Origin: Kushneria konosiri
GTDB taxonomy: Bacteria; Pseudomonadota; Gammaproteobacteria; Pseudomonadales; Halomonadaceae
DNA: 64,000 bases
NCBI RefSeq assembly: GCF_002155145.1
Contig: NZ_CP021323.1
Coordinates: forward strand, 2,542,001-2,606,000
Direction: 5' to 3'
The notes beneath the pieces are model-generated. The model had not been told where the DNA came from and did no database searches. It saw nothing but the letters and a program-made list of their open reading frames with translations. A program made the position numbers and the translations under genes. Positions 34,612 to 38,479 of the stretch are shown here, piece by piece; within the stretch, counting starts at the first letter, position 1; each line of letters opens with the position of its first letter.

Positions 34612-35484
34612 ATGTCACGCGAATATCCCGTGATTGCCATTACCGGCTCGTCCGGCGCAGGAACCACCACCGTACGGCGCGCGTTCGAGCGCATGTTTTC
34701 CCGCAAGGGCATCCGGGCCGCCTTTGTAGACGGTGACGCCTTTCACCGCTATAGCCGCGAAGACCTGGCGCGCATCTTTCGTGATGAGCCCGAGCGCAAG
34801 CACGAACTCTCGCACTTTGCCGTCGAGGCCAACCTGCTGGACCGTCTGGAGCGTCTGTTTGCCGAATACGGCGAGCACGGTACCGGCACCTACCGCCACT
34901 ATATCCACGCCGAAGACAAGCGCATGCTGGAGGCTGGCTATCATGTCGGCACCTTCACCGAGTGGCAGCCGCTGCCCACCGGCACGGACCTTCTGTTCTA
35001 CGAAGGGCTGCATGGTGGACTGGTGTCCTCCCAGCATGATCTTGCCCAGCATGTCGATCTGCTGATCGGGGTGACGCCGACGGTCAATCTCGAGTGGATT
35101 CAAAAGATTGACCGCGACATCAATATGCGCGGGCATTCCCATGAGGCGGTGGTGGATACCATTCTGGGACGAATGCAGGACTACGTGCGCTATATCGTGC
35201 CGCAGTTTTCCCGCACGCATATCAATTTTCAGCGGGTACCCACGGTCGATACCTCCAACCCCTTTGAGCCGCAGGCGATTCCATCCGATGCCGAATCCTT
35301 CGTGGTGATTCGCTTTCGCGACCGCGACAGCGCAGATTTTCCTTATCTGCTCACCATGCTGTCAGGTGCTTTCATGACGAGGCCCAATACGCTGGTGGTG
35401 CCCGGGTCGCAAATGCCGCTGGCCATCGAGCTGATTCTGGAGCCCCAGATCGAAGCGCTGCTGGCGCAACGTCGCTTTAGATAG
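34612..35484 (+). CDS. prkB: Phosphoribulokinase-like P-loop kinase (PrkB type)
   Basis: 290 residues starting after CAGGAGG. P-loop GSSGAGTTTV at residues 12-21, VDGDAFHRY, and DLLFYEGLHGGLV carrying the family's acidic residue. This short bacterial form is common in gammaproteobacteria that have no RuBisCO, usually without a known role in carbon fixation; the natural substrate is uncertain. No Calvin-cycle genes are visible here. Confidence 0.88.
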   Translation: MSREYPVIAITGSSGAGTTTVRRAFERMFSRKGIRAAFVDGDAFHRYSREDLARIFRDEPERKHELSHFAVEANLLDRLERLFAEYGEHGTGTYRHYIHAEDKRMLEAGYHVGTFTEWQPLPTGTDLLFYEGLHGGLVSSQHDLAQHVDLLIGVTPTVNLEWIQKIDRDINMRGHSHEAVVDTILGRMQDYVRYIVPQFSRTHINFQRVPTVDTSNPFEPQAIPSDAESFVVIRFRDRDSADFPYLLTMLSGAFMTRPNTLVVPGSQMPLAIELILEPQIEALLAQRRFR

Positions 35485-35532: not shown

Positions 35533-35874
35533 ATGTCCACGATCTTTACCAAAATCATCAATCGCGAGATCAATGCCAGCATCGTCTTTGAAGACGATGA
35601 GGTGCTGGCGTTCAATGACGTCAATCCGCAGGCGCCGGTACACGTGCTGATCATCCCCAAAAGGGAGATCGCAACGCTTAATGACCTTACCGAAGAAGAT
35701 GCGACTCTGGTGGGCAGGCTGCATCTTGTTGCGGCGAAAATTGCCCGTGACAAGGGGATTGCTGAAGATGGCTATCGTGTGGTGATGAACTGCAACGAGC
35801 AGGGCGGCCAGAGTGTCTACCATATCCATCTGCATTTGATGGGCGGGCGTCAAATGAGCTGGCCTGCCGGCTAG
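35533..35874 (+). CDS. hinT: HIT family nucleotide-binding protein (HinT-like)
   Basis: 113 residues from ATG 35533, which is 6 bp after AGGGAG; a GTG two codons earlier has no spacing. The histidine triad is HIHLHLM near the C-terminus preceded by GGQSVYH. HinT enzymes hydrolyse adenosine phosphoramidates. NDVNPQAPVHVLIIPKREI is the conserved N-terminal strand-loop. Followed by a good terminator. Confidence 0.95.
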   Translation: MSTIFTKIINREINASIVFEDDEVLAFNDVNPQAPVHVLIIPKREIATLNDLTEEDATLVGRLHLVAAKIARDKGIAEDGYRVVMNCNEQGGQSVYHIHLHLMGGRQMSWPAG

Positions 35875-35927: not shown

Positions 35928-36089
35928 GATTTCCGCGCCTTGAGTTCCTGTTCCCGAGCCACGGCAGCGTGTCGCATGGAGCAAAAGTCTTTGTTGTTGA
36001 TGATCCAGCGTCGCCAGTCTGAACGATGGCCGCTATAGTCAGGGCATCACACGTCATGTTTATCGTGAGCGATCTTGAGGAGTCATGCC

Positions 36090-36755
36090 ATGTCCCGTCG
36101 ATTCACGCGCAGCGATCGCTTTGTTGATCAGCTGGACACCATGCTTCGGACCCTGGTGCCGGGTACCACGCGCGCCAGTCGAGCCCGGCCCGGCATGGCG
36201 GTTCGCGATCAGTCCATGACCGCGGATGAGACCCGACACGCCATCGATGTTCTCCGCCATCATCATCGCGCTCGCGTGATTGGTCAGGGGGTGTATCAGG
36301 GGCAGCGGTTCGCCACGGGCATCAGCAGCCGCTACCAGCCGGTAGACGATTTATCGGTTCGAGGCATCGATCATCTTGACTGGTGCGATACCCGTCTTGC
36401 CGAACTTGGCGGGAAGCCATCGCGTCTGACGCCCTTTTATTACACAACGTCGCTGAGCGCCGGCATGCTGCTGAGTCGACCCCACCGCGCGCGCGGGCTT
36501 GGTCTGGTCAATCTGGCGGAAACGCTTCAAGGCGAGTCCCTGGAACGTCAGCTGGAGGCGCTGCCGGCAGGGGACAACAGGTCGCGCGCCATCATCCGTC
36601 AAATGCTGGATGACTGTACGCGTCACGCACGCGTAGCGCTTGAAGCCGGTGGCCAGCGCTGGCCCGGCGGCTGGCGCTGGATAAGCTCGCTGGGGGCCCG
36701 GGCATGCGAATGGCGACGCCTGCGCCGCCATTCATCCGGTGACATGATCAACTGA
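36090..36755 (+). CDS. coq7: Coq7-like protein lacking most di-iron ligands
   Basis: 221 residues from ATG 36090, 6 bp after GAGGAG. By eye it aligns along its length with bacterial Coq7 (demethoxyubiquinone hydroxylase): DTMLRTLVPG, MTADETRHAIDVLR, QGVYQGQ, IDHLDWC-RL-ELGG, LERQLEALPAGD-RSRAIIRQM and HARVALEAGG. Coq7 binds two irons through four Glu and two His. Here the first Glu (GEV-type motif) is R62, the Glu of EEIDH is G92 and the Glu of EEHH is C176, while H95, E144 and H179 remain. Such a protein should not hold a normal di-iron centre. It may be a decaying gene, a structural factor for ubiquinone synthesis, or have a new role. The frame is intact. Confidence 0.8.
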   Translation: MSRRFTRSDRFVDQLDTMLRTLVPGTTRASRARPGMAVRDQSMTADETRHAIDVLRHHHRARVIGQGVYQGQRFATGISSRYQPVDDLSVRGIDHLDWCDTRLAELGGKPSRLTPFYYTTSLSAGMLLSRPHRARGLGLVNLAETLQGESLERQLEALPAGDNRSRAIIRQMLDDCTRHARVALEAGGQRWPGGWRWISSLGARACEWRRLRRHSSGDMIN

Positions 36756-37900
36756 TCATTCTCGCTCGCGGGGCTCTATCTCCTGCATTGTCGCGGAGTC
36801 AATCCTGCGGGATTCGGTCGAAATGGGGGAAAGCTGGGTCACGACACCGGCCTCGTCTTCCTCCTTTTCATGAGAGAACAGATCCCACGCCGCAATAAAC
36901 AGCGCTGCAATCAGCGGGCCGATCACGAAACCGTTGATCCCGAAAAGCGCCATGCCCCCAGGGTCGAAATCAAAACGACATAGTCAGGCAGCTTGGTATC
37001 CTTGCCCACCAGCAGCGGGCGCAGGAAATTATCGGCAAGGCCGATGACCACGACGCCCACAAAGGTCAGAATGATGCCGCTGGCGATGTTGCCGGTCAGC
37101 AGATAATAAACGGCGACCGGCGCCCAGATCAGGGCAGCGCCGATGGCAGGCAGCAGCGACAGGAAGGCCATGATGACGCCCCAGAGCAAGGGGGCTTCAA
37201 TCCCCAGACCCCAGAAGGCCAGCCCTCCAATGGCACCCTGAGTGGCGGCCACAATAATATTGCCCTTGACCGTGGCACGGGTGACCGTAATGAACTTGTT
37301 AAGCAGCTGATACTTGTAGCGTGCACTCAGGGGAATCGCCTGGCGAATGCGACGCCCCAGGGGGACACCATCGCGAAACAGGAAAAACAGCAGATAAAGC
37401 ATGATGCCCAGACTGATGAAAAACTGCAGCGTGTTCTGGCCGATGCTCAATGCCCTTGAGGCGAGAATCTGGCTGCCTTGTGCTGCGCCTTCGGAAACAC
37501 GGTCACGCAGTTGGGAAAGGTCTCCCACGCCTGCGCTTTCGAGCCAGCCATCGACCGTGGGCGGTAATGCCTGGCGTGCCTGCTCAATGTAGGCACCGAT
37601 ATCCAGATCGCCGGTGCGAATGCGCTGATAAACGCTGGTGCCTTCCTGTACCAGTGAGCCGGCGATCAGGGTAACCGGGATGATGACGATAAAGATGCAG
37701 ATCAGGACATTGGTCAGCGCTGCCAGATTGCGTCTTCCGCCATAAAGGCTCAAAAGGCGCCGCTGCAGGGGCATGAACACAAGTGCCAGAATAACGCCCC
37801 AGAACACGGCGCTGAAAAAGGGCAGCAATATCCAGACAAAGGCAACCGAGACGGCCACCAGCAGTAGCTCAAACGCCCTTTTTTCAATCGGTTTTTCCAT
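36756..37900 (-). pseudogene. AI-2E/PerM family permease, frameshifted near the C-terminus
   Basis: The first frame (37900 down to 36923) encodes 325 residues with about seven membrane helices (AFELLLVAVSVAFVWILLPFF; GVILTFVGVVVIGLADNFLRPLLVGKDTKLPDYVVLISTLG). It then leaves the family with AWRFSGSTVS and stops. A second frame resumes exactly with GMALFGINGFVIGPLIAALFIAAWDLF, the expected last helix, and ends at 36756. Adding one G to the run of five (minus strand; CCCCC at 36955-36959) joins them into about 381 residues. Family members export small molecules; substrate unknown. An assembly or sequencing error is as likely as a true mutation. Confidence 0.87.
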
Positions 37901-38059: not shown

Positions 38060-38479
38060 TCAGGCTTCAACGATTTCCCATGAGTGGGTGATCTCGACGC
38101 CGCCTTTGGCAAGCATCAGTGAGGCACTGCAATATTTCTCGGCCGAAAGCTCCACGGCGCGCTTGACCTGAGCTTCCTTGAGCGAGACGCCCGTCACCAC
38201 AAAGTGAAGGTGAATGCTGGTAAAAACAGCCGGTGTGGTGTCGGCGCGCTCGGCCTTGAGCTGGGCAACACAGTCCGTCACCCTTGCGCGCGCCTTTTCA
38301 AGGATGTTGATGACATCATAGGCGCTGCATCCACCAAGTCCCATCAGAACCATTTCCATGGGGCGAGGGCCAGTGTTGCGACCGCCATTATCCGGGTTGC
38401 CGTCGAGAATGACGGCATGACCACTGCCGGATTCGGCCACGAACTGTCGGCCATCGGTCCATTTGATATTGGCTTCCAT
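38060..38479 (-). CDS. OsmC family protein (YhfA-like)
   Basis: 139 residues. The two redox cysteines are in LGGCSAYDVI (about C51) and EKYCSASLML (about C117), the positions used by OsmC/Ohr peroxidases to reduce organic peroxides. Sequence style (VRPMEMVLMGLGGCSAYDVI; GVEITHSWEI) fits the YhfA branch, whose physiological substrate is not known. Monocistronic with its own terminator. Confidence 0.9.
   Translation of the reverse strand: MEANIKWTDGRQFVAESGSGHAVILDGNPDNGGRNTGPRPMEMVLMGLGGCSAYDVINILEKARARVTDCVAQLKAERADTTPAVFTSIHLHFVVTGVSLKEAQVKRAVELSAEKYCSASLMLAKGGVEITHSWEIVEA

Follow-up and report, generated by a model that had tools for sequence, protein, structure and literature searches.

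What remains of a Coq7 once the site that defines the enzyme is gone? In bacteria, Coq7 is generally regarded as a hydroxylase and nothing else, and in genome scoring a Coq7 match is taken as the C6 hydroxylase. The question is raised by a coq7 homologue at positions 36090–36755 (+ strand) of the window, the 64,000-nucleotide stretch analyzed here from the genome of the halophile Kushneria konosiri. The 221-aa frame is open and preceded by the ribosome binding site GAGGAG (36077–36082, +), 7 nt 5′ of the ATG, in agreement with the original prediction of an intact and well-initiated gene. Its product scored above the cut-off of the Pfam COQ7 family PF03232 (44 bits, E-value 2e-11; cut-off 23.5) and below that of the NCBIfam DMQ-hydroxylase equivalog NF033656 (134 bits; cut-off 180). 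Ligand columns were mapped using family-invariant motifs as anchors, together with the family profile aligned to human COQ7 (PDB 7SSP/7SSS). When aligned with intact Coq7s, the ligand set EEHEEH becomes RGHECH in K. konosiri: ligand Glu 1, 2, and 4 are replaced by R62 (36273–36275), G92 (36363–36365, in the ExxH motif), and C176 (36615–36617), while H95 (36372–36374), E144 (36519–36521, ligand Glu 3), and H179 (36624–36626; all codons on the + strand) are present, exactly as had been read from the sequence beforehand. The motifs EEIDH, DEAHH, and TGEV accordingly read RGIDH, DCTRH, and RARV. The original prediction would have been refuted by other Glu or Asp residues taking the ligand positions; in the alignments with intact Coq7s, no nearby acidic residue substitutes for a lost ligand inside the ligand motifs.

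A genome search found no second Coq7 in K. konosiri, leaving 36090–36755 as the sole homologue. In each of the nine other Kushneria genomes, too, the only Coq7 scores low and its ligands are broken, so the loss is not a single-strain error. Two of the ligands retained in K. konosiri are themselves variable in the genus, with Q for H95 in species G005 and S for E144 in G001 and G007, and the C176 position is occupied by S, D, or K in other Kushneria species. Judged by its sequence, the K. konosiri protein is a family member by descent that lacks the defining features of the enzyme. It presumably binds no di-iron centre and is almost certainly dead as a DMQ hydroxylase.

UbiF is a flavin monooxygenase, non-homologous to Coq7, that performs the same C6 hydroxylation of demethoxyubiquinone, and E. 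coli uses it without any Coq7. Three strong Ubi-type flavin hydroxylases are encoded in the K. konosiri genome, with UbiH and UbiI adjacent to each other. The third (C1:1462818–1463963) matched E. coli UbiF best (40% identity, 259 bits vs. 184 for UbiI) and grouped with it, apart from UbiH and UbiI, with support of 100/99, in a clade that also takes in orthologues from all nine other Kushneria genomes. Its FAD motif GxGxxG and its GDAAH motif are intact, and its score against the narrow NCBIfam UbiF model (317) lies below the cut-off of 590. Searches of the genome returned no U32 family match for UbiU/UbiV and no COQ9 homologue; a UbiJ-like candidate at C1:545726–546322 is a weak match that adds little. 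UbiF is the sole recognized candidate for the C6 step in K. konosiri and very probably performs the DMQ hydroxylation there. Of the two alternatives originally proposed for the hydroxylating enzyme, a UbiF-like protein is thus present and a second Coq7 is absent. Ubiquinone Q9 is the reported respiratory quinone of strain X49T (PMC6167781), so the C6 step is completed despite its Coq7.

In a survey of 275 Halomonadaceae genomes, with ligand columns read in 133, ligand loss or outright loss of coq7 goes with UbiF. UbiF was present in 121 genomes, of which 50 had a broken Coq7, 30 an intact one, and 41 none. Among the genomes read that lack UbiF, Coq7 was intact in 49 and broken in four, a contrast (50/30 vs. 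4/49) with a Fisher p of 6e-11 that overstates the independent evidence because the genomes are related by descent. Approximately 96 further UbiF-less genomes were assessed by score; nearly all had intact-Coq7 scores, and three were frameshifted or fragmentary. Coq7 was missing from 46 genomes, 41 of them with UbiF. The four UbiF-less genomes with a broken Coq7 are G024, G025, G166, and G260. A divergent UbiM-like hydroxylase was seen in G024 and G025, G166 is a congener of G024, and in G260, which is assembled in 230 contigs, UbiF may have escaped detection. Of the five genomes with neither Coq7 nor UbiF, four are incomplete assemblies (71–77% complete) and the fifth is G026, in which the UbiM-like enzyme also occurs; this protein scored 315–334 bits in G024, G025, and G026 (cut-off 420) and may be their C6 hydroxylase. 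In a separate case, G019, the UbiF frame is seemingly shifted or cut short from around residue 328 onward and Coq7 has one ligand change (EKHEEH); the assembly may be at fault, or the lineage may be returning to Coq7.

Beyond the family, no comparable low-score Coq7 was found in 142 other gammaproteobacterial genomes (one per family), and the two lowest-scoring complete ones that were read were intact (EEHEEH). Within the genomes sampled, ligand-less Coq7 seems restricted to Halomonadaceae. Scans of viral contigs yielded just one distinct intact Coq7: four viral-labelled IMG/VR contigs (L234–L241) carry an identical coq7 reading EEHEEH, which is a metabolic gene of viruses or else comes from bacterial DNA binned wrongly.

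The replacements differ among lineages. The main Kushneria patterns are RGHE(C/S)H and RGQEDH, two other Kushneria have GQHS(K/S)H, and broken copies elsewhere in the Halomonadaceae read AQQT(D/N)H, QGR(A/C)(E/Q)(Q/G), T(A/T)HKNH, (G/S)AH(R/Q/C)E(Q/H), and E(D/N)HEKH, along with several lighter forms. Lys or Arg occupies a ligand position in 39 of the 54 broken Coq7s. In the Coq7 tree, intact copies from UbiF-bearing relatives are interleaved among broken ones, and the ligands were probably lost at least five separate times, the exact number being uncertain because long branches may attract. This recurrence is a better argument for the link with UbiF than the Fisher p. Branches leading to broken groups have long stems (1.1–1.5 changes per site) followed by short crowns.

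The gene has stayed where it was. A PRK-family kinase gene (34612–35484, +) and a HIT-domain gene (35533–35874, +) lie upstream and an OsmC-like gene (38060–38479, −) lies downstream, all three identified by synteny as ancestral neighbors of coq7. The order PRK-HIT-coq7, with OsmC downstream on the opposite strand, recurs in most relatives with sufficient flanking sequence, whether their Coq7 is broken or intact, which indicates that the original coq7 is in place rather than a divergent import. Between HIT and coq7 lies a promoter-like element, TCGCCA-17-TATAGT (36011–36046, +). Across the main Kushneria clade, a 14-base block around TATAGT, CTATAGTCAGGGCA, is conserved and the flanking intergenic DNA is not, a pattern consistent with a maintained promoter. 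In several Kushneria species (L231–L233) about 1.9 kb separates HIT and coq7; this is not so in K. konosiri. Between coq7 and the OsmC-like gene, the frame of an AI-2E family transporter (window 36923–37900, −) passes, at a short run of G near 36956–36962, into an unrelated ending, AWRFSGSTVS, and the expected C-terminal coding sequence runs on in another frame, which suggests a sequencing error or a frameshift of one base.

We compared which residues the broken copies retain, using eight ligand-poor groups (these may not be independent, as some of their long branches join in the tree). D9, D16, L19, P34, G71, R102, and D162 are present in every sequence of all eight groups; E92 is kept in none, and E62, E144, and E176 are each kept in 20–25% on average. 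As a mean over the eight groups, retention of residues invariant in canonical Coq7s is 91% for the six sites of the N-terminal segment vs. approximately 47–49% in helices 1 and 4. This segment, an N-terminal helix/linker at residues 7–34 (36108–36191, +) that carries D9, D16, L19, and P34, falls outside the stretch aligned to human COQ7. Such a pattern would be expected of a second, non-catalytic function common to active and inactive forms; the universally retained residues could also be simply fold-critical. As for the fold itself, a PDB search with the single K. konosiri sequence gave no match, whereas the canonical profile does match COQ7. A structure model built from four near-identical sequences reached a pLDDT of 47, and one built with a single distant homologue reached a pLDDT of 60.6 and a pTM of 0.58, a low confidence at which it was used for fold only. 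The best PDB matches of this low-confidence second model were 7SSS and 7SSP (probability 1.00, TM 0.73–0.74 by target, E-value 4e-3).

The ligand-less copies are under purifying selection. Pairwise dN/dS among the main Kushneria was 0.08–0.19, at a synonymous divergence between species of 0.5–1.2; values were 0.10 for G001/G007, 0.05–0.14 in the T(A/T)HKNH groups, 0.01–0.08 in the GAHREQ group, and 0.08–0.17 in the E(D/N)HEKH group. The overall range for broken copies, 0.01–0.19, resembles that of active Coq7s (0.04–0.22); dS was obtained by a simple counting method and nears saturation for distant pairs, hence the close pairs carry the argument. Codon bootstraps gave upper 95% bounds of 0.09–0.28 for pairs with dN/dS of 0.05–0.15, excluding values near 1 in every pair tested. 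The broken homologues retrieved as open frames are full length (209–221 aa), and broken copies keep open frames, low-quality assemblies aside. In a neutral simulation of the coq7 ORF, only 2% of frames were free of stops at 0.25 substitutions per site and 0% at 0.5. The dN/dS values and the simulation lead us to reject a random pseudogene. The suggestion made at the outset that the gene is no random wreck is thus borne out by the low dN/dS, the conserved position, and the conserved promoter-like element, and the check proposed with it, dN/dS among relatives, revealed no pseudogene-like evolution. There is good reason for confidence that the ligand-less Coq7 preserves a non-catalytic function.

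We consider the following course of events the probable one. A vertically inherited, ancestral coq7 would have been joined in some lineages by UbiF, which likewise hydroxylates demethoxyubiquinone at C6; UbiF would then have taken over the reaction, lifting selection on the di-iron site so that its metal ligands were lost. The Coq7 polypeptide would have been kept for a second, iron-independent function, perhaps as a structural or substrate-handling subunit of the ubiquinone-synthesis complex that binds the membrane or a quinone intermediate, with the conserved N-terminal segment as a likely contact site in that complex. A role of this kind has been proposed for yeast Coq7. In yeast, coq7 nulls accumulate an early intermediate only, and synthesis proceeds to DMQ6 in loss-of-function point mutants, E194K among them (PMC5014327), which makes a role in the ubiquinone complex the leading proposal and an unrelated new role its main rival. 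By analogy with this precedent, and from the conservation described above, placing the preserved function in ubiquinone synthesis is about an even call. Several observations weigh against the proposal: 41 relatives with UbiF have no coq7 left, so some lineages can do without any second function; E. coli likewise manages with UbiF and no Coq7; and COQ9 is absent from the K. konosiri genome, so the yeast and human partner of Coq7 is missing.

The rival to be taken most seriously is a new function outside ubiquinone synthesis, in which the metal-freed, ferritin-like scaffold was recruited differently in each lineage, e.g., for quinone or lipid sensing or for another protein partner. The long stems followed by slow crowns fit such a history, as do the lineage-specific ligand replacements and the 46 positions at which the main Kushneria are fixed for a residue other than the canonical one, among them a basic C-terminal tail approximately 8 residues longer. 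Against this, identical non-ligand residues are invariant in the eight groups and in active Coq7 alike, which favors a shared, older function, and the position of the gene is unchanged; we regard recruitment to a new role as rather unlikely. The evidence favors a pre-existing second function.

Far less credible is an altered metalloenzyme in which a mononuclear (H95, E144, H179) or otherwise reduced metal site supports some oxygenase activity. K. konosiri retains all three residues, as do seven of the eight main-clade genomes, and with two to three ligands left in some forms a single metal ion may be bound. However, in a di-iron bundle the two ligand His serve different metals, and the substitutions of H95 in G005 and of E144 in G001/G007, together with TAHKNH or QGRAEQ in other groups, leave no conserved metal site. 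The least probable reading, and one that we give almost no weight, is a slowly decaying, functionless pseudogene. UbiF makes Coq7 redundant, and outright coq7 loss is frequent among UbiF-bearing relatives, as decay would have it, but 95% intervals of dN/dS well under 1 in every pair tested, frames that stay open where the neutral simulation predicts stops, and the conserved promoter-like block all contradict it. Returning to the UbiF takeover with a retained pseudoenzyme, its broadest form is a tentative one, which we hold as somewhat less than an even prospect: bacterial Coq7 may always have been bifunctional, combining hydroxylation with a metal-independent role seated partly in the N-terminal segment, and UbiF takeover would repeatedly have exposed the latter as a metal-free pseudoenzyme, often with a basic residue replacing the metal charge.

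Scoring a C6 hydroxylase from a Coq7 match would mislead for dozens of Halomonadaceae species. Neither a conserved, recurrent Coq7 pseudoenzyme nor a link between Coq7 and Halomonas was found in the open-access literature, to which the search was confined. Among known systems, the closest is Coq7/CLK-1/Cat5 itself (PF03232; NF033656), with which the K. konosiri protein shares homology over nearly its full length, gene neighborhood, both His and one Glu ligand, and, as far as a low-confidence model shows, a predicted helical fold with 7SSS/7SSP as the best PDB match; it differs in lacking three of the four ligand Glu, in scoring under the equivalog cut-off, and in co-occurring with UbiF. UbiF catalyzes the normal Coq7 reaction and is present in the genome, but as an unrelated flavin enzyme it is a replacement for Coq7 rather than a relative. 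Another di-metal carboxylate scaffold that is conserved after loss of ligand Glu, with a basic residue entering the site, is the R2 protein of class Ie ribonucleotide reductase (VPK/QSK variants; PMC11846895); R2e is catalytically active by means of a DOPA radical, whereas the Lys or Arg of Coq7 is not at a fixed position and no such chemistry is indicated. The G001 Coq7 (L032), which reads G-Q-H-S-K-H, matches the letters of the metal-free QSK variant, probably by coincidence, its sister G007 having S for K.

The yeast point mutants are the most instructive comparison. E194K and G65D are complemented by UbiF (Tran et al., 2006, as cited in PMC5014327), so that UbiF completes the synthesis in the presence of a catalytically inactive Coq7 polypeptide, which may assist it. 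Those are laboratory mutants in a mitochondrion, unlike the natural, conserved, bacterial forms described here, which in K. konosiri occur without COQ9. Repeated loss of the metal site beside UbiF, maintained by selection, would be a natural version of the yeast experiment that pointed to two Coq7 functions. If this is true, the natural ligand-less Coq7s amount to ready-made separation-of-function alleles, from which it could be learned what Coq7 does besides catalysis.
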